Origin: Ruminococcus sp.
Lineage (GTDB): Bacteria; Bacillota; Clostridia; Oscillospirales; Ruminococcaceae
DNA: 64,000 nt
Direction of reading: 5' to 3'
Assembly (NCBI RefSeq): GCF_017464355.1
Contig: NZ_JAFUAG010000011.1
Span: 1-64,000, forward strand
Positions 47,932 to 58,758 of this stretch are shown here, piece by piece; the stretch's first letter is position 1; each line of letters begins with the position of its first letter. Below the pieces are notes generated by a model, which saw nothing but the letters and a program-made list of their open reading frames with translations, was not told the DNA's origin and did no database searches. A program made the translations under genes and the position numbers.

Positions 47932-47960
47932 TTGACTTATGTCTATTTTTATTGTATAAT
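47932..47960 (+). promoter_or_regulatory. Promoter of the adenylation-enzyme operon
   Basis: TTGACT (47932-47937), 17-base spacer, TATAAT (47955-47960), about 95 bases before the first start codon. Confidence 0.8.
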
Positions 47961-48055: not shown

Positions 48056-50377
48056 ATGTGCGATCAGAAAGCATATAGTTTCATAAAGGAACGCAATAGT
48101 CAAAACCTGCATAAAACAGCCCTTAAAGACGGTCTGGCCGAATACTCCTACAGCGATATGTTCAAAAAGTGGGAGGAGTACGCTGCGGTTTTTTCTGCGC
48201 TTGGGATAACGGGCAAAAACAAAGCAAGGGCAGGCCTGCTGGGGTCTACCTCCGCAGAAGCCATATTTGCCTTTTACGGACTCAACATGGTCGGGGCGGA
48301 AGTTTCCCTGCTGGGCACGTTCTATGCCTTTTCCCACAAAAAGCTGATGACCAGCATACAGCAGGAAAAACTCACAGATATCATACTCACCGATGATTTC
48401 GCACAGCCCGCCCTCATCTCCGAGCTGCTCATGAAAAAATCGGCCCTCGGGCTGAAAAATATCATTCTCCTGCATATCCCCTTCGGCGGAAGCTCCGTTA
48501 GCTTCCCCATGGCCGCAGCGCAGGAATATAAGTACATGGCCGAGAAACAGCTCTATGCCCCCATATGCATGGACTCCCTGCTGCAAATGTATGCCTCCCA
48601 CCCCGTAAGCTATGCCGAAAATGTCAGCAGCGATACGGCAGTGATAATACATACCTCAGGCACTACCTCGGGCATGGGCAAGCCCATAAACCTGTCCGAC
48701 AGCGCCCTCAATAACGCAGGGCTCAGCTATGATATGCTCGAAAGCTTCCGTTACCTCAAGGAGGACCTGGTCTGTGCCCTTACCATAGACCTCAGCAATT
48801 CCTACGGCATAGTTGCCCAGGTACACGCTCCCCTGTCCATTGGCGGAGCCGTTGCCATGACCCCCGCAGGCTCCTTCAACCCCATGTTCTATAAGGCCGT
48901 CCCGGAATTCGGCATATCCCTGCTGTTCTGCACAGCCGCTATACTGGATATGTGGATAAAGCACGAGGAGCCCTCTATGGACTTTTCAAGTGTTAAATGC
49001 GTTGTCATCGGCGGGGCGGCGGTCTCGGCGGAGGATAAGCACCGCTGTCTCGATCTCCTTTGCAGGCACGGCGGAAAGAACATACTGTTCATAAACGGCT
49101 ACGGCCTCAGCGAGCTGGGCGGCGCCTGCATTCTTTCCACCCCCGACCTCGATGACGACTCCATAGGCTACACCATGCCGGGAGTCGAGTTCTGCCTGTA
49201 TGACGAGGAGGAAGACAAATTCCATACCATGGAGGATACCCCCTGCCGCGGTGTGCTTTACCTGCACTCCCCAGCCATGACCACAGGCATTCTCGACGGC
49301 GAGGAGATAGTAAAAACAGAGCTGATAGCCGATAAAAGATATGTCTGCTCCAACGACCTGGTCAGCGCCGATGCCGACGGCAAGATACACTACCTCGGCC
49401 GTGCCAACAGATATTTCCTGAACGACGCAGGCAAAAAGTACGAGGCAGGCAGGGTCGAAGCAGAGATAAAAAATCAGGCGGGTATCGAAAGCTGCGGCGT
49501 AATACCATTTTATGTAAAGGTCGCCCACGACAACGTCCCCATGCTCTGCGTGAAGACCCGCACCGATGACTGCACCGCCCCTGAGGTGGTCCGCAGGGCG
49601 CTGATACAGGTCTTCGTCCTCGATAAGACCCTCCCCCCCGACCAGCTTCCCGAAAGGATAATGCTGAGAGATGACCTGCCCCGCAACCAGAACGGCAAGG
49701 TGGATCTCTACAAGCTGGGTCAGGAAAAGCTTTCGGGCAAACAGTTCAAGACCGAAGCTGTAAAGGTCATGGGGCGCCTTACAGATATAGCCCTTATCCC
49801 CGTGGTAACGGAGGAAGACGATATGCTTCAGGACGTTCTGAAGTCCATAGCCAAGGATATAACGGACAATAACTGCCCGTTCAATAATAATTCTACCACT
49901 GAAACGGAGGAAACTACCATGAAACAGAATTTCGATCCATTCGCATTCTTCAATTCTTCAAACCGTATGAACGACCAGGTCAAGGATATGATGAGCAAGA
50001 TGTTCAGCTGTATGCAGGGCGGACAGCAGGGCTTCCCCTTTATGGGCGGTGTGCCGCAAATGCCGCAAATGCCTCAGATGTTCGGTATGCCCCCCTTCGG
50101 GCAAATGCCTAACTTCGGCCAGATGCCTATGATGCCTATGATGCCCATGCAGGGCAGTATGCCTCAGTTCGGCTGTATGCCCGATATGCAGCAGATGAAC
50201 AAGATGATGTCAGCCTATGCCGAGCAGATGTTCAATATGACAAAGCAGACCATGGAAATGATGTATCAGCAGAATATGCAAATGCTTGAAAAGATGAACG
50301 AGATAGTTCAGAACAGCCTGAAGGGCGCCGAAAGCAGCGGGCAGGACAAGCCCTCCGAAGCTGAGAGCGAAGACTGA
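48056..50377 (+). CDS. ANL-superfamily adenylating enzyme with Met/Gln/Pro-rich C-terminal tail
   Basis: A 773-residue protein. Residues 1-590 are an AMP-forming adenylation domain: the P-loop-like HTSGTTSGMGKP near 205-216, NGYGLSELGG near 345-354, the NDLVSADADGKIHYLGR core near 440, and the C-terminal catalytic Lys in LPRNQNGKVDL near 546. No carrier-protein domain (GGxS) follows. From residue 622 to the end there is a low-complexity tail with clustered Met, Pro, Gln, Phe and Gly (MPQMPQMFGMPPFGQMP) and then a Met/Gln-rich helix. An in-frame ATG at 49919 with its own GGAGG could start the tail alone. It is first in an operon with a paralogue at 50397. Substrate unknown (carboxylic, fatty or amino acid). 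Confidence 0.85.
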   Translation: MCDQKAYSFIKERNSQNLHKTALKDGLAEYSYSDMFKKWEEYAAVFSALGITGKNKARAGLLGSTSAEAIFAFYGLNMVGAEVSLLGTFYAFSHKKLMTSIQQEKLTDIILTDDFAQPALISELLMKKSALGLKNIILLHIPFGGSSVSFPMAAAQEYKYMAEKQLYAPICMDSLLQMYASHPVSYAENVSSDTAVIIHTSGTTSGMGKPINLSDSALNNAGLSYDMLESFRYLKEDLVCALTIDLSNSYGIVAQVHAPLSIGGAVAMTPAGSFNPMFYKAVPEFGISLLFCTAAILDMWIKHEEPSMDFSSVKCVVIGGAAVSAEDKHRCLDLLCRHGGKNILFINGYGLSELGGACILSTPDLDDDSIGYTMPGVEFCLYDEEEDKFHTMEDTPCRGVLYLHSPAMTTGILDGEEIVKTELIADKRYVCSNDLVSADADGKIHYLGRANRYFLNDAGKKYEAGRVEAEIKNQAGIESCGVIPFYVKVAHDNVPMLCVKTRTDDCTAPEVVRRALIQVFVLDKTLPPDQLPERIMLRDDLPRNQNGKVDLYKLGQEKLSGKQFKTEAVKVMGRLTDIALIPVVTEEDDMLQDVLKSIAKDITDNNCPFNNNSTTETEETTMKQNFDPFAFFNSSNRMNDQVKDMMSKMFSCMQGGQQGFPFMGGVPQMPQMPQMFGMPPFGQMPNFGQMPMMPMMPMQGSMPQFGCMPDMQQMNKMMSAYAEQMFNMTKQTMEMMYQQNMQMLEKMNEIVQNSLKGAESSGQDKPSEAESED
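49906..49921 (+). promoter_or_regulatory. Internal ribosome binding site and ATG inside the first ANL gene
   Basis: GGAGG (49906-49910), 8-base spacing and ATG (49919-49921), in frame with the large protein at Met622. Translation from here would give a 152-residue Met/Gln/Pro-rich protein ending at 50377, comparable with the free-standing protein at 53474. Use of this start is an inference. Confidence 0.5.
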
Positions 50378-50396
50378 AAAGAAGGAGTGTCTTCAG

Positions 50397-53300
50397 ATGG
50401 CTAAAGAGGGAATAGGAAAAAAGTTAAAGCGCGAGGTCGTCCGTGCCATGCTTGAACGCACCCAGGGCATGGATATGTCCAAAATGGCTTCCATGATGGG
50501 CGGCACCACCTATGTACCATATGACAATGTCGAGGAAACGCTGAACATACCCTATGTCAACCGCGATGAAGTCCCGCTGGCTATGGATATGTTCAAGCCC
50601 ATAGTCCCCGAGGGCACCGAGCTGCCCGTGGCAATAGTTATCCACGGCGGCGGACTTACCATGGGCGACAGAGGCTTTGCCCGCCCCTATGCCCGCAGGC
50701 TCGCCCACCTGAATTACCTGGTGTTCTCCCTGGAATACCGCCTTGCCCCCAGGGCAAACGTGTGTCAGGAGCTTGATGATGTCTGCGCAGGCATGGACCT
50801 TGTGGGAAAAATGCTGGTAGACCACGATGTGGATCTTACCCGTATCTTCCTGGTGGCCGACAGCGCAGGCGCTTACCTTTCAGCTTACGTTTCAGCCATG
50901 CACGGCTCACGGAAGCTCTGCGAGGTCATCGGCCATGAGCCCAGCCGCATGAATTTCGCCGCCATAGGCCTTATGAGTGGTATGTTCTACACCAACCGCA
51001 AGGACCCCACAGGCTGGATGCTCTCAGAGCAGATATACGGCGAAAAGCGGGCAGACGAAAGGTTCCTGAAATACATGGACCCCGAAAACCCCGAGATAAT
51101 AAAGAACGTGCCTCCCACGTTCCTGCTGACCAGCCGCGGTGACTTCATGAACAACTATACCTTCATGTTCCATGAAGCCCTGAAAAAAGCAGGCCGTCCC
51201 ACCAAGCTTCTCTATTTCGGCGACGAGAGCCTGCAGCACGTTTTCGCTATCAGCGACCCCGAAAACCCAAAAAGTATCGAGGCCACCGATAAAATGCTGG
51301 CATGGTTCGAGGAACAGGCCAGGCTGAAAACACAGCGCAGCAAGAAAGACCCCACTGTCACCCGCAGGCGCAAGAAGCTCGAAAAACGCCTTGAGGACGG
51401 CACCATAAACGACCAGAAGGTCTGGTCTTATATCAAGGAGCGCCGTTCCTTTGACCCTAAGCTGCTGGAACTTACCGCCCTCATCGACTGCACCGGAGAG
51501 TATACCTACAGCGAGATGTTCGATGAGTGGGATAAGTACGCCAGGGTGTTCACAGCCCTCGATATCACCGCAGGCAACCACTCCCGCGCAGCCATAGCAG
51601 GCGCCATAACCGCCGAGCCCCTGTTCGCTTTCTATGGACTGAACATGACAGGCGCCCAGGTGTCCATGTTCTCCTACCCCGATCTCGTCCCCGGGGGCAG
51701 CTGGCGTACCATGCTTGAAAAAGAAAAGATAACCGATCTCATAATAGCAGATATAATGGTCACTCCCGACCTCTGGAAAGAACTTCAGGCCGCTAAAAAG
51801 GAGCTGGGGCTCCGCAACATTATCCTGCTCCATTCAAAAATGGGCGGCCCCTGCGTGGGTCCCGCTGAGCTTGTTTATAACGAGATGAACTACCATTATC
51901 TTGCGACCCTGCCCGATACCCTTTTCATGGCAGACCTCGTGGAAAAGTACGCTGATACCCCCATATTTATGGATAAGTCAAAGGGTGACGACATCGCCCT
52001 GATAATGCATACCTCAGGAACTACCCGCGGCACCCGCAAGCCACTGCCCTATACCAACAGGTCGGTGAACAACGTGGCCAGTTCCTCAGCCAACGGCTTC
52101 CGCCGGTATGCCGACAGCGGCAAGGCTCCCCGCCAGCTGCGCACCCTGCTGCATTTCGACTTCAGCTCCTTCCTGGCCATGGGCGGGCTGGTCAATGCCA
52201 ACCTTGCCGCAGGCGAAACTATCGTGCTGACCTTCTTCGGCTTCATGCACCCCAAGTTTATCCGTGCGGTGGACTACTATGATATCGACACCCTGGTGCT
52301 GGGCGGCTTCATGGTCGATAAGTGGCTGGAACGCACCGATATCGACGATGTCAGCTTCTCCTCCGTAAAGGTGCTGGGGCTGGGCGGCTCCTATATCCCT
52401 CCCGAGAAGATGAAGAAGTATGACGAGTTTTTCAAGGCCCACGGCTGCAAGTGCAGTATCAACAACGGCTACGGTATGTCCGAAACAGGCGGCAGCCAGC
52501 TCATGGTGAAGAGCAGCGGCGAGAGCGACACCCTGGGCAGCGCCGATAACGCCGATGATATCATGCGCATAAAGGACGACACCGACGGAGAATTCTATAC
52601 CGCCTCCCAGGGTGCCCGTTCAGGCATACTCTACCTCTCCTCCAACTCCATGGCGGAGAACGAGCTTGACGGCGAAAAGCTCTTCGACTTCACCGAGATA
52701 AACGGCCGCCGCTTCATCTGCACCAACGATATGGTGCGCGTGAACGAAGACGGCACTATCTCATACTCAGGCCGTGCCGATAAATACTTCGTCAACAACG
52801 AGGGCAAAAAGTTCGATTCGGGTCTGGTGGATACAGCTATGTCTTGCCACCCCGCCGTCAGCAGATGTGCCGTGGTGCCCGTACTTGAAAAGCGTATCCA
52901 CGATACCGTGCCCGTGCTGTATGTAGTAGCGGCGGATAGATCCGACAATGCCCCTGAAAGCATTCGTCAGGCTCTGGCAGATGTATATGTGAATAAAAAA
53001 GAGCTCCCCGCCGATGACCTGCCCGTTCAGTTCATGCTGGTCGACGATATACCCCTTAACAGCAGCGGCAAGCTGGATATCTTCCGTGTTACCCGCCAGC
53101 GTCTGCAGGGCAGGGCATATAACATAATCCCCGTATTTGAGGGGAACGAGCTCACCGATATCAAAACAGAGTTCGTCGAAAAGACCAGCAGCATGACCGC
53201 AGGCACCCTCCCCGAGGGCATGGGCGGCGGCTCAGCCTACGACCTCTTTGACCTGTTCAACACCCCGCCCAAAAAGGAGGAACAGCCCGCAGGCGCCATG

Positions 53301-53459
53301 CCTTTCATGTTCCCATTCGGCATGATGAACTGCTTCGGCAAACCCGAAGACAAAGAGATGAAAATGCCCGATATGCCCGAAGGCCTGATGAAGCTGGGCA
53401 ATAAGCTCATAGGCAAGCTCTATTCGGCAAGAGATATAGATTTCGATATAGAAGATTGA
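50397..53459 (+). CDS. Alpha/beta hydrolase fused to ANL adenylating domain with Met/Pro/Phe-rich tail
   Basis: A 1020-residue two-enzyme fusion. Residues 50-310 are a hormone-sensitive-lipase-type hydrolase: the oxyanion motif IHGGGLTMGD near 80, the nucleophile in VADSAGAYL near 158 (Ala where Gly is usual before DSAG), Asp in SRGDFMN and His in LQHVF. Residues 340-910 are an adenylation domain paralogous to the upstream gene (FAFYGLNM and similar blocks shared), with HTSGTTRGTRKP, NNGYGMSETGG, NDMVRVNEDGTISYSGR and the catalytic Lys in LNSSGKLDI. A tail of about 85 residues is Met/Pro/Phe-rich (GAMPFMFPFGMMNCFG). AAGGAGTG precedes the ATG, 20 bases after the first gene. No such fusion is known to me. 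Confidence 0.85.
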   Translation: MAKEGIGKKLKREVVRAMLERTQGMDMSKMASMMGGTTYVPYDNVEETLNIPYVNRDEVPLAMDMFKPIVPEGTELPVAIVIHGGGLTMGDRGFARPYARRLAHLNYLVFSLEYRLAPRANVCQELDDVCAGMDLVGKMLVDHDVDLTRIFLVADSAGAYLSAYVSAMHGSRKLCEVIGHEPSRMNFAAIGLMSGMFYTNRKDPTGWMLSEQIYGEKRADERFLKYMDPENPEIIKNVPPTFLLTSRGDFMNNYTFMFHEALKKAGRPTKLLYFGDESLQHVFAISDPENPKSIEATDKMLAWFEEQARLKTQRSKKDPTVTRRRKKLEKRLEDGTINDQKVWSYIKERRSFDPKLLELTALIDCTGEYTYSEMFDEWDKYARVFTALDITAGNHSRAAIAGAITAEPLFAFYGLNMTGAQVSMFSYPDLVPGGSWRTMLEKEKITDLIIADIMVTPDLWKELQAAKKELGLRNIILLHSKMGGPCVGPAELVYNEMNYHYLATLPDTLFMADLVEKYADTPIFMDKSKGDDIALIMHTSGTTRGTRKPLPYTNRSVNNVASSSANGFRRYADSGKAPRQLRTLLHFDFSSFLAMGGLVNANLAAGETIVLTFFGFMHPKFIRAVDYYDIDTLVLGGFMVDKWLERTDIDDVSFSSVKVLGLGGSYIPPEKMKKYDEFFKAHGCKCSINNGYGMSETGGSQLMVKSSGESDTLGSADNADDIMRIKDDTDGEFYTASQGARSGILYLSSNSMAENELDGEKLFDFTEINGRRFICTNDMVRVNEDGTISYSGRADKYFVNNEGKKFDSGLVDTAMSCHPAVSRCAVVPVLEKRIHDTVPVLYVVAADRSDNAPESIRQALADVYVNKKELPADDLPVQFMLVDDIPLNSSGKLDIFRVTRQRLQGRAYNIIPVFEGNELTDIKTEFVEKTSSMTAGTLPEGMGGGSAYDLFDLFNTPPKKEEQPAGAMPFMFPFGMMNCFGKPEDKEMKMPDMPEGLMKLGNKLIGKLYSARDIDFDIED

Positions 53460-53473
53460 TACAGGAGGATACA

Positions 53474-54043
53474 ATGTTTGATAATATGCCCCAAATGCCC
53501 TTCCCATTCGGCACCTTCCCTATGGGAGGGAATATGCAGCCACAGGCAGTAATGCCTCAGCTGCCTCCCATGCCTTTCCCCTTCGGCGGCTTCCCCATGG
53601 GCGGAAATATGCAGCAGCCCCGGGCAGTAATGCCCCAGCTGCCTCCCATGCCTTTCCCATTCGGCGGCTTCCCCATGGGCGGAAATATGCAGCAGCCACA
53701 GGCAGCAATGCCCCAGCTGCCCCCCATGCCTTTCATGTTCCCATTCCCCATGCCGGGAATGACTCCCCCTCAGGCAGGCGCAGCACCTCAGCCGAACGGC
53801 TTCCCGTTCCCCTTTGGCTTCCCGATGGTGCCTTTCATGCCCCCCTATCCCACAGGTGACATGAACAGCGCACCCCCTGAACAGGAGGAGAAAAAAGAAG
53901 CCCCCAAGGGCTTTGACTTCATGGGAATGAACATTTCCCCCGAAGTCCTGCAAAAGCTGCTGAACATCGACGCCACCCCCGAGCAGCTTGAAGAACTGCA
54001 AAAATTCCTCGATAAGGCCTATGCCAAAAAGGACAAAAAGTAA
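53474..54043 (+). CDS. Met/Pro/Phe/Gly tandem-repeat protein
   Basis: A 189-residue low-complexity protein. It is built of 26-residue repeats (MPQLPPMPFPFGGFPMGGNM plus a short Gln/Pro/Ala end) in about three copies after a partial first unit, then a Pro/Phe-rich stretch. An acidic/Lys linker and a small helical C-terminal domain follow (SPEVLQKLLNIDATPEQLEEL ... KKDKK, residues about 155-189). No signal peptide is present, so it is cytosolic. The ATG at 53474 follows AGGAGG, 15 bases after the upstream stop. Its repeat composition matches the tails of the two ANL proteins in the same operon, suggesting a scaffold that gathers them or forms a condensed phase. That role is inference. Confidence 0.85.
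   Translation: MFDNMPQMPFPFGTFPMGGNMQPQAVMPQLPPMPFPFGGFPMGGNMQQPRAVMPQLPPMPFPFGGFPMGGNMQQPQAAMPQLPPMPFMFPFPMPGMTPPQAGAAPQPNGFPFPFGFPMVPFMPPYPTGDMNSAPPEQEEKKEAPKGFDFMGMNISPEVLQKLLNIDATPEQLEELQKFLDKAYAKKDKK
53552..53740. repeat. 78-bp tandem direct repeats in the Met/Pro-rich gene
   Basis: Units begin at 53552, 53630 and 53708 (period 78 bp, the last partial), with a diverged partial unit from about 53486. They keep the reading frame and encode the 26-residue Met/Pro/Phe/Gly unit. Confidence 0.9.
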
Positions 54044-54053
54044 ACACACAAAA

Positions 54054-54092
54054 AAGGCTTTTGCCGCACCACAACAGGTCGGCAAAAGCCTT
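54054..54092. terminator. Terminator of the ANL operon
   Basis: AAGGCTTTTGCCG (54054-54066) and CGGCAAAAGCCTT (54080-54092) form a perfect 13-bp stem with A-rich flanks on the left and T residues on the right. Confidence 0.8.
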
Positions 54093-54206: not shown

Positions 54207-54290
54207 TGGTGGGAGAAGATGGATTCGAACCATCGAAGCCGAAGCAACAGATTTACAGTCTGCCCCCTTTGGCCGCTCGGGAATTCTCCC
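54207..54290 (-). tRNA. tRNA-Tyr (GTA)
   Basis: A class II tRNA with a long variable arm. The acceptor GGGAGAA pairs with TTCTCCC, and the anticodon loop CTGTAAA reads GTA. The terminal CCA is encoded (54207-54209). Confidence 0.95.
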
Positions 54291-54960: not shown

Positions 54961-56910
54961 ATGGGATTTTCAAAACTCTGGCTCGATTACAAAAAACTTG
55001 CCGATACCCGTCGGCGCATAGTCATCAGCTGCGACCATTCCCTTAAGGATACCGCAGCCTTTGACGAACTCAGAACCGCCATGGCAGCCATGGTGCCCGA
55101 GGCTATAGTCCTCTGGAAGACCGAGGTCTTCGACGATGACTCTTACCTGATAGTTCTCACCCTCCACCCCGAACTGGCAGCGGAGGAATATGATATAGCC
55201 GCATCTCTCAACATCACCGAGATCTGCGGCGGCAGCGAAACAGGCCTGCTCTACGGCGTCTTTGCCTTCCTCAGGCAGACAGCCATTGCAGGGGGCTTCA
55301 CCGCCTTCACTGCCCACGCAAAGCCCTCTCAGCCCCTGCGTATGCTCAACCACTGGGATAATGCAGACAGCTCTATCGAAAGGGGCTACTCAGGCAATTC
55401 TTTCTTCTTTGTCAACGGTGAGCTTGCCGTTGACGAGCGCACCGTTATGTATGCAAGACTTGTGTCTTCCATCGGCATAAACGGTGTGGTCATAAACAAC
55501 GTCAACGTCCGCGGCAAGGCCAAGCGCCTGCTGGCCGATGACTTCGCCGACAAGCTTGAAGAGCTTGGCGGACTTTTCAGCAGATACGGCATAAAGCTGT
55601 TCATCTGCCCCGATTTTGCCGCCCCTATCACCGTCGGCGGACTTAAGAGCGCAGACCCCCTCGATGATGAGGTCATCAATTGGTGGAACAGCTGCTGCGC
55701 CGCCCTCTTCGGCAGGGTCAAGGGACTTGGCGGTTTCCTCGTCAAGGCAGACTCCGAGGGTCAGCCGGGGCCTTTCGCCTACGGCCGTGACCACGCAGAC
55801 GGCGCAAATATGCTGGCAAGGGCTGTAAAGCCCTACGGCGGCATAGTCATCTGGCGCTGCTTTGTTTACAACTGCGCTCAGGACTGGCGTGACCTTAAGA
55901 CCGACAGGGCTCGTTCAGGCTACGATAACTTCGTTCCCCTGGACGGCAGATTTGACGATAATGTCATTCTCCAGGTCAAGAACGGCCCCATGGATTTCCA
56001 GGTGCGTGAACCCGTCCACCCCCTCTTCGGTGCCATGAAAAATACTAAGCTCATGGCCGAGTTCCAGCTTGCCCAGGAATACACAGGCCAGCAGAAGCAC
56101 GTTTGCTGGCTGGTACCCATGATAAAGGATATTCTCGCTTTCCACACCTGCCACGACCTCGATGATGACCGTGTCAGCAGGATTGTCTGCGGTGTGGCAG
56201 CAGTGGCAAATACAGGTGATGACTTCTGCTGGACAGGCAGCGAGCTTGCAGCAGCTAACCTCTACGGCTACGGCAGACTCCTCTTCTGCGAGGATATCGA
56301 CATGGAAGAACTTGCCGAAGAATGGGCGACTCTCACTTTCGGCGACGATGAACAGGTAGTGTCCTCCGTCAGGGAGATACTCCTGGGCTCCCATAAAGCC
56401 TACGAGGACTACACCGTCCCCCTGGGGCTTGGCTGGATGTGCAAGCCCAACCACCACTACGGCCCCGACCCCTGGGGCTATGAGTTCGACCGCTGGGGCA
56501 CCTACAACCGCGCCGACAGAAATGCCGTGGGCGTTGACAGATCAGCCGCAGGCACAGGCTATTCTGAGCAGTACGCTCCCGCCCTAGCCGATACCTACGG
56601 CGATATCTCCCGCTGCCCCGATGAACTCCTGCTGTTTTTCCACCGTGTACCCTATACCCATAAGCTGCACAGCGGCAAAACAGTTATCCAGCATATCTAC
56701 GACGCCCATTTTGAGGGCTATGCGCAGGCCGAGCATTTTGCAAAGCTCTGGGCAGATCTTGAAGGCAAGGTCGATGAGGGCGCTTTCAAAAACGTCAGCG
56801 AACGCTTTGCCGAGCAGCTGCGCTGTGCTAAAGAATGGCGCGATATCGTAAACACATTTTTCCACAGATTTTCGGGCATTGATGACGAAAAGGGCAGAGA
56901 AATTTTTTAG
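54961..56910 (+). CDS. aguA: GH67 alpha-glucuronidase
   Basis: Cytosolic enzyme that removes (4-O-methyl-)glucuronic acid from xylo-oligosaccharides. The 649-residue length is normal for the family. Features are the N-terminal domain, the catalytic barrel with LNHWDNADSSIERGYSG near 125-141, the acid Glu in KADSEGQPGPF near 262, and the catalytic pair region VPLDGRFDDNVILQVKNG with PMDFQVREP near 330-350. The C-terminal helical domain includes NHHYGPDPWGYEFDRWGTY near 500. No signal peptide is present. AAGAAGGA precedes the ATG. An SGNH esterase gene follows 12 bases later, so side-chain removal from xylan is concerted. Confidence 0.96.
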   Translation: MGFSKLWLDYKKLADTRRRIVISCDHSLKDTAAFDELRTAMAAMVPEAIVLWKTEVFDDDSYLIVLTLHPELAAEEYDIAASLNITEICGGSETGLLYGVFAFLRQTAIAGGFTAFTAHAKPSQPLRMLNHWDNADSSIERGYSGNSFFFVNGELAVDERTVMYARLVSSIGINGVVINNVNVRGKAKRLLADDFADKLEELGGLFSRYGIKLFICPDFAAPITVGGLKSADPLDDEVINWWNSCCAALFGRVKGLGGFLVKADSEGQPGPFAYGRDHADGANMLARAVKPYGGIVIWRCFVYNCAQDWRDLKTDRARSGYDNFVPLDGRFDDNVILQVKNGPMDFQVREPVHPLFGAMKNTKLMAEFQLAQEYTGQQKHVCWLVPMIKDILAFHTCHDLDDDRVSRIVCGVAAVANTGDDFCWTGSELAAANLYGYGRLLFCEDIDMEELAEEWATLTFGDDEQVVSSVREILLGSHKAYEDYTVPLGLGWMCKPNHHYGPDPWGYEFDRWGTYNRADRNAVGVDRSAAGTGYSEQYAPALADTYGDISRCPDELLLFFHRVPYTHKLHSGKTVIQHIYDAHFEGYAQAEHFAKLWADLEGKVDEGAFKNVSERFAEQLRCAKEWRDIVNTFFHRFSGIDDEKGREIF

Positions 56911-56922
56911 GAGATAAAGAAT

Positions 56923-58758
56923 ATGAGCATTTTCAAGGCTGATGATATTTTTTCCGACGGCATGATATTGCAGCGTGATACGGAAAACTTCATTACAGGT
57001 GACGGTGAGGGCGAGATAACCCTTACCCTGGAACGTGACGAAAGGATATGCGGCCGTTCCCGCATAGCAGCAGACGGCAGGTGGCGCATAGCTGTCCCCG
57101 CCGGCAAGGCAGACAGTCTGCCCTATACCATAAATATCCGCTGCGGCAACCTGATGATAGTTATAAGCGATGTGCTTTTCGGCGATGTCTTCCACATCAC
57201 AGGCCAGTCGAATATGGAGCTTCCCATGAGCCGCACCTACGACCCCTTTAAGGGCAAGGTAGCTGTCCCCGAGGAAGACCTTATCAGAGAATACCGTGTA
57301 CCCATAGACCTTTGCTTCGAGGCAGGCAAAGAGTCTCATAAATTCATAGGCGGCAGCTGGAAGCGTGCCTGCGACGATACAGACCTTTCCATGAGCGCAG
57401 CAGGCTACTTCTTCGCTAAAAACCTTTTTGCCGAAACAGGTGTCCCCGTGGGACTTGTCAACACCTCCGCAGGCGGCTCCGCTATCGAGGGCCGTATCCC
57501 CGCCGAGGTCTGCCGTGAATTCCCCGAGCTTGACCCCGTCACCGATATGGTCACAGCCAAAGGCTATATGGAAAAAACTCTGGCCGAGGGCGAAAAGAAC
57601 CAGAATTCCTGGTCTTCTTTCGTCAACGATAACGATAAGCTGGCTGAGGATATCCTCGCAGGCAAATTCCCCGCGGGCAATAAGGTAAACATTCCTTTCT
57701 GGGTCGATGAAGTCCCCGCCCTCAGCGGCTTCACAGGCAGGCTCTGGCTCTGGAAGACCTTTGAAGTCCCCGCCAATGCCGACCTCTCAGACCCTATGCT
57801 CATTCTGGGCACCCTGGTCGATGCCGATGTCTGCTACATAAACGGCACTAGGGTGGGCAGCACCGACTACCTCTATCCCCCCAGATATTACTCCTTCCCC
57901 GCCGATATCCTAAAAAAGGGCAAAAACACCCTGGCTGTCCGCCTGGATATCATGGGCGCCGAGCGCGGCGGCTTTACCGAGGGCAAGCGCTTCTGCGTAA
58001 AGCTGGGCGATACCGTCATCGACCTCTCAGGTCAGTGGGATTACGAGATAGCCGTCAAGGCCGAAAAACGCGGCCCCGTAGAATTCCTGCCCTCCAAAGA
58101 GCTGGCTGTCTACGGCTTCATGACAGCCCCCGCCTACAGGCTGCCCTTTAAGGGTATGCTCGTATATCAGGGCGAAACTAACTGCGGCGGCTGGGCTATC
58201 TACGATAAGCTCTATAAACGCTTCGTTGAATACTACCGCCAGCGCTGCGGCTATGATATCCCCGTGGTGTCCGTCCAGCTCCCTAACTGGACCCCCGGCG
58301 GCGAAACCTGGGTGCATCTGCGCCAGAAACAGCTTGAATGCTGCGCTATCCCCAATACAGCCATGGCCGTTACCCTTGGCATGGGCGAGAACAATGACCT
58401 CCACCCCAAGAACAAAGCCGCCGTCGGCGCCGCCCTCTGCGACTGCGTACTGCGGCTCATCTATAATAAGGGCGATACCCGCCCCGTCAGCCCCGTAAGC
58501 GTTAAACAGTCCAAGTCGGGCATACAGCTCGACTTCCCCGAGGAAGTCCGCCTCACCGACCCCGAGACCGATTACTTCGAGGTGCATACCAAGTCGGGCT
58601 GGCATACAGCCCCCGCCTCCGAAAAGGACGGCGGCATAAACCTCAGTATCTCAGGCACCGCCGATAAAGTCCGCTACGCATGGCGCCCCGACGCCGATAA
58701 CCCCGCCGCAAAAGGCGTCAGCGGCCGCCTGGTCCCCACCTTTGAAATGACCATCTGA
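56923..58758 (+). CDS. SGNH-type carbohydrate O-acetylesterase (sialate O-acetylesterase-like)
   Basis: A 611-residue cytosolic esterase. The catalytic Ser is in HITGQSNMELPM near residue 92, the Gly/Glu/Asn block is VYQGETNCGG near 415, and the Asp/His pair is in NDLHPKNKAA near 490. A jelly-roll-like insert (about 240-370) separates the blocks, the layout of the SIAE/acetylxylan-esterase-like family. It is co-transcribed with the GH67 glucuronidase, so acetylated xylo-oligosaccharides are the likely substrate rather than sialic acid. No signal peptide was seen. It ends at a complex palindromic region. Confidence 0.9.
   Translation: MSIFKADDIFSDGMILQRDTENFITGDGEGEITLTLERDERICGRSRIAADGRWRIAVPAGKADSLPYTINIRCGNLMIVISDVLFGDVFHITGQSNMELPMSRTYDPFKGKVAVPEEDLIREYRVPIDLCFEAGKESHKFIGGSWKRACDDTDLSMSAAGYFFAKNLFAETGVPVGLVNTSAGGSAIEGRIPAEVCREFPELDPVTDMVTAKGYMEKTLAEGEKNQNSWSSFVNDNDKLAEDILAGKFPAGNKVNIPFWVDEVPALSGFTGRLWLWKTFEVPANADLSDPMLILGTLVDADVCYINGTRVGSTDYLYPPRYYSFPADILKKGKNTLAVRLDIMGAERGGFTEGKRFCVKLGDTVIDLSGQWDYEIAVKAEKRGPVEFLPSKELAVYGFMTAPAYRLPFKGMLVYQGETNCGGWAIYDKLYKRFVEYYRQRCGYDIPVVSVQLPNWTPGGETWVHLRQKQLECCAIPNTAMAVTLGMGENNDLHPKNKAAVGAALCDCVLRLIYNKGDTRPVSPVSVKQSKSGIQLDFPEEVRLTDPETDYFEVHTKSGWHTAPASEKDGGINLSISGTADKVRYAWRPDADNPAAKGVSGRLVPTFEMTI

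Follow-up and report, generated by a model that had tools for sequence, protein, structure and literature searches.

A conserved three-gene cassette of tailed adenylate-forming enzymes, a hydrolase fusion and a Met-rich repeat protein in Ruminococcus sp., and its possible role in ester cleavage and acid activation

Architecture and conservation of the cassette

Our analysis of a 64,000-base stretch of Ruminococcus sp. DNA (assembly GCF_017464355.1, contig NZ_JAFUAG010000011.1, positions 1 to 64,000; hereafter the window) concerns a cassette of three forward-strand genes encoding two paralogous adenylate-forming enzymes of the ANL superfamily, one of them fused to a hydrolase, and a repeat protein. 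In ANL1 (48056..50377, +; 773 residues), an enzyme part (residues 1-585) is followed by a tail. The second gene encodes the fusion HYD-ANL2 (50397..53459, +; 1020 residues), with a hormone-sensitive-lipase (HSL)-type alpha/beta hydrolase domain, HYD (50397..51329, +; PF07859 at 1.5e-18, PF20434 at 8e-12), and, C-terminal to it on the same chain, the adenylate-forming domain ANL2 (51330..53183, +; PF00501 at 2.2e-24, PF13193 at 3.3e-07). The third product, REP (53474..54043, +; 189 residues), is a Met/Pro/Phe/Gly/Gln repeat protein recognized by its composition and a 78-base unit. The genes are separated by 19 and 14 bases, the spacing given in an earlier reading of this DNA (the original prediction), with the REP start set at ATG 53474, downstream of a GGAGG, rather than at the alternative listed start TTG 53456. 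That the three genes constitute a real, conserved unit is almost certain.

A scan of genome contigs with HYD-ANL2 returned 14 loci, of which L037 (23% identity, E 1e-4) was dropped as an apparently ordinary ANL and L036 is a fragment; the neighborhood comparison covered 17 loci, namely the window, L024-L036, L070, L071, and L073 (L and G numbers are our designations for loci and genomes). All three genes, on one strand and with both tails, are present in each of the nine loci that have HYD-ANL2 at at least 50% identity and visible neighbors: the window, L024, L025, L026, L027, L029, L030 (ANL1 cut by the contig end), L031, and L032. In these loci 90-217 residues extend past the ANL match in ANL1 and 90-102 in HYD-ANL2, and REP lies 3' of HYD-ANL2 in five and 5' of it in four. 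The remaining eight loci comprise one that begins inside HYD (L028), the fragment L036, four members of a distant branch without REP (L033, L034, L035, and L070; 34-43%), and two with a tailed ANL1 and no HYD-ANL2 or REP in view (L071 and L073). The concern, raised with the original prediction, that homologs might lack the tails and the repeat gene does not apply to the nine close loci and applies in part to the distant branch, whose four loci have no REP domain and many short-ended ANLs. Across 28 pairs of loci, identity in ANL1 rises with identity in ANL2 (r=0.87), the pattern that co-inheritance of the two proteins would produce.

Both adenylating enzymes match PF00501 above the cut-off (2.7e-39 for ANL1) and thus belong to the ANL superfamily. 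Their enzyme parts are 37% identical and share the predicted blocks, including FAFYGLNM; the reported lack of a carrier motif after either ANL also stands, since no carrier domain was matched in the three window proteins (Pfam, E up to 0.1), which sets them apart from nonribosomal peptide synthetases (NRPSs) and other carrier-dependent systems. The P-loop, YGxSE, Asp, Arg, and catalytic Lys are retained in eight of eight ANL1 and eight of eight ANL2 sequences, bar one Ser-to-Thr exchange in the P-loop among the former and two Thr-to-Ser exchanges among the latter. In AlphaFold2 (AF2) models, ANL1 is folded to about residue 585, and HYD plus ANL2 is modeled with moderate confidence (mean predicted local distance difference test score [pLDDT] 68.9, from an alignment of 11 rows). 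Among solved structures, both ANLs come closest to stand-alone acyl/aryl-coenzyme A (CoA) ligases, which are nearly tied: FACL13, anthranilate, benzoate, MenE, feruloyl, and 4-coumarate. We therefore dropped a choice between aryl, short-acyl, and fatty-acyl substrates by fold, the rows being tied and the fatty-acyl-CoA ligase FACL13 ranking first for ANL1 and second for ANL2. An acidic residue near the substrate region (Asp/Glu in all aligned rows) attracted attention by its likeness to the Asp motif of NRPSs and DltA; it aligns with the Pro of a P-x-F-H motif in other ANLs, and a call of amino-acid specificity from this residue was likewise dropped. HYD matches PF07859, and H83-G-G, S156, D249, and H281 are invariant in 11 of 11 alignment rows, as in HSL-type hydrolases.

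The C-terminal tails had been described as rich in Met, Pro, Gln, Phe, and Gly on both enzymes. This is true of ANL1, far above background: its tail contains 18.5% Met, and the best 90-residue stretch reaches 29% Met and 79% M+P+F+Q+G, compared with maxima of 8.9% and 39% among other, picked window open reading frames (ORFs) of at least 150 residues and a background of 3.2% Met. The ANL2 tail is only mildly enriched (11% Met, 42% M+P+F+Q+G). The ANL1 tail consists of a mostly disordered Met/Pro/Gln/Gly-rich part (49811..50182, +; pLDDT below 50 for residues 586-639 and 645-711, the latter with 28% Met and 3% charged residues) and a predicted single long Met-rich helix (residues 710-759; 50183..50332, +; AF2, block pLDDT 54-72). 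The best 18-residue hydrophobic moment of this helix is matched by 4 of 2000 shuffles in the window and 13 in L024, with weaker values of 70 for L027 and 198 for L026; the corresponding counts are 117 for the REP domain and 81 for the ANL2 end.

The ANL2 tail (53184..53456, +) is predicted to be disordered (block pLDDT 25-35, residues 930-1020). It closes with a conserved acidic/aromatic end that the original prediction had overlooked, ARDIDFDIED (53427..53456, +), preceded by a low-confidence predicted helix (995-1008). A D-aromatic-x-aromatic-acidic pattern, drawn up after the tails were seen so that its count is descriptive, occurs in 17 of 3140 ORFs (at least 40 residues, 26 loci): 10 full HYD-ANL2 proteins, the HYD-ANL2 fragment of L036, two distant-branch ANL ends (L035 and L070), and four free small proteins in multi-ANL clusters (L034, L065, L068, and L069). 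The ANL1 helix module also occurs free, in two copies beside ANL1 in L071. Tails diverge more than enzyme bodies (33% versus 56% identity for ANL1, 45% versus 60% for ANL2), and some contain tandem units, of 30 bases in the L026 ANL1 and 45 in L035. In L026, L027, L029, L032, and L073, the ANL1 helix runs on into Lys/Ala/Pro-rich ends, and in a distant homolog (L010/L070) such a stretch sits at the N-terminus. Histone-like matches of the Lys-rich ends fell below the cut-off, track composition, and were rejected.

REP reaches 84% M+P+F+Q+G in its best stretch and contains 3.1 copies of the 78-base unit (53495-53734); the unit in L025 is 99 bases. No Pfam profile matched REP above a cut-off. The protein is not, as had been thought, almost only repeats, because its last ~45 residues form a conserved C-terminal domain (53900..54040, +). 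Run against 16 genomes, a profile of this domain, A4, has a single match in nine of them, each time adjoining HYD-ANL2; the seven genomes without a match are G805 (cut contig), G813 (fragment), G746 (ANL1 only), and the distant-branch genomes G810, G811, G812, and G043.

Family, distribution, and genomic site

A tree of 55 rows places the 46 ANLs of the cassettes and larger clusters in a single clade (100/100, stem 1.98), which splits into ANL1 (10), ANL2 (13), and two more groups (5 and 18); long outgroup branches meet in this tree, according to a warning of the tool, and its root is unsure. Cassette-family ANLs have a one-residue insertion in the hinge (A8) motif. Another ANL of the window genome, L005 (G000:C14:4079-5284, -), also has a one-residue hinge insertion and branches beside the cassette family, on a very long and hence unsure branch.

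The family is rare. Apart from the window's own genome, it was found in G043 alone among 394 genomes of the order, in G746 alone among 391 of the class, and in no other among 398 of the phylum; the three samples overlap, and the full cassette is missing from both G043 and G746. The cassette was not found in the 28 other genomes of the genus, where matches reached just 41-75 bits. Carriers include several Clostridia bins and one labeled Chloroflexi, and record titles place several carriers in the guts of sheep and goats; the scan carriers are metagenome bins by title, and odd taxon labels may reflect misbinning. Identities of ribosomal protein L2 and HYD-ANL2 are weakly correlated (r=0.18; 36 pairs, nine genomes, L034 included). 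The two proteins disagree for L027 and L032 (91% versus 51%) and for the window and L024 (66% versus 67%), and agree for L027 and L029 (97% and 86%) and for L024 and L031 (79% and 82%); L025, the window's nearest relative by L2, is also among its nearest by HYD-ANL2.

The cassette occupies a tRNA-linked variable site. A tRNA-Tyr gene (54207..54290, -), its 3' end toward the cassette and about 160 bases from REP, marks this site together with tRNA-Thr and tRNA-Pro. The sister genome G023 has an alternative cargo at this position: about 17.8 kb of other genes (L102:1054-18398), among them a 3002-residue ORF, bounded by the tRNA-Pro/Thr/Tyr trio and the GGDEF gene that also flank the cassette in the window. 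G027 has another arrangement, and the 12 kb read there contain no tRNA. The window's flanks look native, the GGDEF-type gene and the GH67 gene having orthologs in the genus at up to 76% and 86% identity. No transposon or integrase was noticed by eye, and no profile search for one was made. The variable tRNA-linked site and the mismatch between L2 and HYD-ANL2 support horizontal gain, and from the patchy distribution at this site we infer that the cassette moves horizontally.

Upstream of ANL1, a promoter-like TTGACT-17-TATAAT element (47932..47960, +) agrees with the consensus at 11 of 12 positions, a consensus match only, and is the top of 12 sites in the region scan (shuffles: mean 6.2). Spotted by eye 3' of REP, an inverted repeat of 13 base pairs with T-rich sequence behind it (54054..54092, +) may be a terminator; its 13-base loop lies beyond the limits of the computed scan, which does not report it. 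Past the tRNAs (54961-58758, +) lie a GH67 alpha-glucuronidase and a SASA-type esterase, possibly a pair for glucuronoxylan use. A xylan link to the cassette was rejected: these genes lie across the tRNAs, and GH67, present in 10 of 29 genomes of the genus, has orthologs in 9 of the 28 others, all of them cassette-free, so that it was assigned to the site rather than to the cassette.

Beyond the cassette, G803, G804, and G806 carry a second cluster with several ANLs, HYD, HYD-ANL proteins, and a small acidic tail protein. The original prediction missed both these larger clusters and the tRNA-linked site. MFS_2 transporters occur in the G804 cluster (L067 and L068) and beside a G806 ANL (L072). 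Among other neighbors in multi-ANL clusters is a MATE-type transporter with a C-terminal HATPase_c_2 domain (L069:10014-11774, +, in G806; Pfam), with similar MatE-HATPase fusions seen by eye at L065:15905-17671 (-) and L068:1-1707 (-). Dicarboxylate symporters (SDF) lie near ANL genes at L069:6120-7784 (+; Pfam) and, by eye, at L068:9800-11479 (-) and L075:3942-5546 (+), with ~140 extra N-terminal residues that have no Pfam match. In G803, NRPS genes (L076:7772-18562, -, to L065:1-2727, -) are situated about 8 kb away from the multi-ANL cluster, and their condensation-type and carrier-type proteins contain long low-complexity repeats (QQNGGWGNQGWP; GQGPKQMCTPKP) that resemble the ANL tails in kind. 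The transporters, given their esterase and acid-activating neighbors, would suit cells that take up esters and use them, and the NRPS neighbor fits biosynthesis; neither is constant across clusters. The region 3' of the L032 cassette (L032:11609-17670, +) encodes an old-yellow-enzyme/short-chain dehydrogenase fusion, a tocopherol-cyclase-like protein, and an aldehyde ferredoxin oxidoreductase.

A model for cassette function and its alternatives

Building on the linkage and the retained catalytic residues of the enzymes, we propose the following model. HYD would cleave, or transfer, a short acyl or aryl ester, releasing the acid; ANL2, on the same chain, would re-activate the released acid with ATP, probably as a CoA thioester, while ANL1 may activate a second acid or the same one. 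The disordered Met/Pro/Phe/Gln tails, together with REP, would gather the enzymes in a cytosolic cluster, in which specific binding is likely to involve the REP C-terminal domain and the end motif of ANL2, and the repeats may contribute weak multivalent contacts. Such a horizontally moving, self-scaffolded module for ester cleavage and acid activation is in our view the best explanation of the cassette, with a probability of roughly 40%. Also in its favor are the lower conservation of the tails relative to the enzyme bodies, repeat units that differ from lineage to lineage, the free copies of tail modules, the acyl- and aryl-CoA ligases among the nearest folds, and the MFS_2 transporters near ANLs in G804 and G806. 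Within it, a role of the tails and REP in co-assembly is the part we would favor: both tails are multivalent low-complexity regions predicted to be disordered, as expected of condensate scaffolds, with REP judged by its composition, and the predicted disorder fits the scaffold role suggested in the original prediction. The direction toward ester salvage is put forward more tentatively, as are channeling from ester to acid and CoA as the acceptor. Ester-bound plant acids are abundant in the guts of sheep and goats, where several carriers were sampled. We also entertain, as a rather speculative extension, a portable enzyme condensate, that is, a mobile operon bringing its own Met-rich scaffold and matching tails to form a membraneless and, through methionine oxidation, possibly oxygen-sensitive metabolic body in anaerobes, with low-complexity tags of this kind also at work in sister multi-ANL clusters and, beyond the ANLs, on an NRPS.

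Several observations weigh against this model. Our confidence was lowered slightly because FACL13 is among the tied nearest folds, and the top 50 structural neighbors, which span about 2.6 Z units, also include amide synthetases and amino-acid adenylation domains; the best sequence matches of ANL1 are beta-aminoacyl-acyl carrier protein (ACP) synthetases. Among the neighborhoods listed, inspection by eye revealed no CoA-using enzyme that recurs throughout. HYD departs from the canonical GxSxG box, with ADSAG in the window and Ala, Ser, or Thr in place of the first Gly in 11 of 11 rows. The low-complexity parts are uneven: amphipathicity is weak in the L026 helix, the REP domain, and the ANL2 end, tails of the distant branch are rich in Gln, Cys, or Asp/Glu, and, with Met at 15-28% in the five REP stretches measured, REP contains 34% charged residues in L032 and just 4% Pro in L026. 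Moreover, L026, L027, L029, and L032 have an extra ANL2 copy without hydrolase and with a tail of just 6-26 residues, which argues against a need for a tail on every enzyme, and many ANLs in related clusters are short-ended. Finally, the cassette is not obligate, as G746 has a tailed ANL1 with no HYD-ANL2 (E up to 1e-40) and no REP domain, and in G807 a second ANL1 with a tail lies on a separate contig, where the 12 kb read contain no HYD or REP.

Alternatively, the tails and REP could coat a hydrophobic inclusion, in the manner of phasins or oleosins, with the enzymes making or mobilizing its contents. The long Met-rich helix that closes the ANL1 tail, amphipathic in the window and L024, its free copies in L071, and the Lys/Ala/Pro-rich continuations recall the layout of PhaF, with its long amphipathic helix, zipper, and DNA-wrapping C-terminal domain, as described (PMC3574117). 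Nevertheless, we consider this unlikely: the helix is only weakly amphipathic in L026 and L027, no lipid or polyester synthase is constant in the operons by eye, nine tail stretches had no match to phasin profiles of Pfam or NCBIfam at E up to 5 (a search in which HMMER filtering removes most weak matches), and the PhaC_N profile matched in none of 14 carrier genomes, whose bins may be incomplete (completeness of 12 not stated; control match in 1 of 14, Caulobacter). The absence of a polyhydroxyalkanoate (PHA) synthase match in these genomes and of a phasin profile match led us to reject classical PHA granules, and a polyester storage product is not supported. A lipid substrate may be considered, with FACL13 among the tied nearest folds.

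A biosynthetic role appears equally improbable. Here the ANLs would form acyl- or aminoacyl-adenylates and the hydrolase would act as an acyltransferase, yielding an ester, amide, or lactone, as in an OleBC-like or carrier-free NRPS pathway. The union of an ANL and an alpha/beta hydrolase on one chain, described for oleBC (PMC7064751), would fit, as would the several ANLs per cluster, the beta-aminoacyl-ACP synthetases that ANL1 matches best, the amide synthetases among the tied folds, and the NRPS with its own repeats in G803. However, HYD belongs to PF07859 with no Abhydrolase_1 match, the window proteins lack a carrier domain, no tailoring enzyme is constant by eye, and the stretches read beside the clusters of G804 and G806 contain no NRPS. 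Less probable still is a reading in which the tails and REP arose by nearly neutral repeat expansion and have no part in scaffolding, the enzymes being an ordinary esterase and acyl-CoA ligases: tandem DNA repeats expand readily, the tails diverge fast, and some family members are tailless, yet tails and REP are retained in nine of nine loci despite different amplified units, most REP stretches measured are alike in composition, and the REP domain and C-terminal motif are conserved. A role in anti-phage defense was rejected, as no PADLOC model matched (seven proteins, E up to 0.01).

If the proposed module exists, it hints at an undescribed bacterial means of gathering enzymes in one place. 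The cassette would offer a compact, transferable model of bacterial enzyme co-assembly by low-complexity sequence, with separable parts (the tails, the REP repeats, the REP domain, and the C-terminal motif), and would open the function of methionine-rich low-complexity sequence in anaerobes to experiment. It also defines a deep branch of acid-activating enzymes.

Relation to known systems

What is the place of this cassette among described systems? No description of its gene layout was found among the open-licence PMC papers listed, judged by title and the start of the abstract. The ANLs share their fold and key residues with stand-alone acyl/aryl-CoA ligases (anthranilate, benzoate, 4-coumarate, feruloyl, MenE, and FACL13) and differ from them in forming a separate deep clade and in their hinge insertion, tails, and hydrolase fusion. 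HYD has the HGG, Ser, Asp, and His of bacterial HSL-type esterases such as Esterase B (4n5h), its best PDB sequence match; unlike these, it is fused to ANL2 and lacks the first Gly of the lipase box.

OleBC combines an ANL-type enzyme and an alpha/beta hydrolase, the OleB-type hydrolase being Abhydrolase_1/haloalkane-dehalogenase-like. In this system of olefin and beta-lactone biosynthesis, the two lie on one chain, as in HYD-ANL2, and horizontal transfer of the fusion was suggested by the authors of the study (PMC7064751). In contrast, HYD is HSL-type (no PF00561 match at E up to 0.1), and the cassette fusion is accompanied by a second ANL and REP; the excerpted OleBC account mentions no low-complexity tails (PMC7064751).

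Phasins, PhaF in particular (PMC3574117), may share with the cassette tails an amphipathic helix, intrinsic disorder, and, in some cassette homologs, Lys/Ala/Pro-rich ends. The combination of a long helix with disorder is seen at moderate model confidence in the window ANL1 tail and is weak in L026 and L027. Unlike phasins, the cassette module is fused to an adenylating enzyme and occurs with no PHA synthase or phasin profile match. The Met-rich low-complexity domain of yeast Pbp1/ataxin-2 was shown to phase-separate and to melt on oxidation (PMC8394241) and, like the cassette tails, is Met-rich and disordered, in our case by prediction. Pbp1/ataxin-2 is an RNA-binding protein; the cassette encodes enzymes, whose phase separation is hypothetical. 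On the features compared, the cassette belongs neither with OleBC nor with the phasins. It may best be viewed as a variant of scaffolded enzyme assembly, with OleBC as the nearest fusion, phasins as the nearest tails, and Met-rich domains as the nearest assembly principle.

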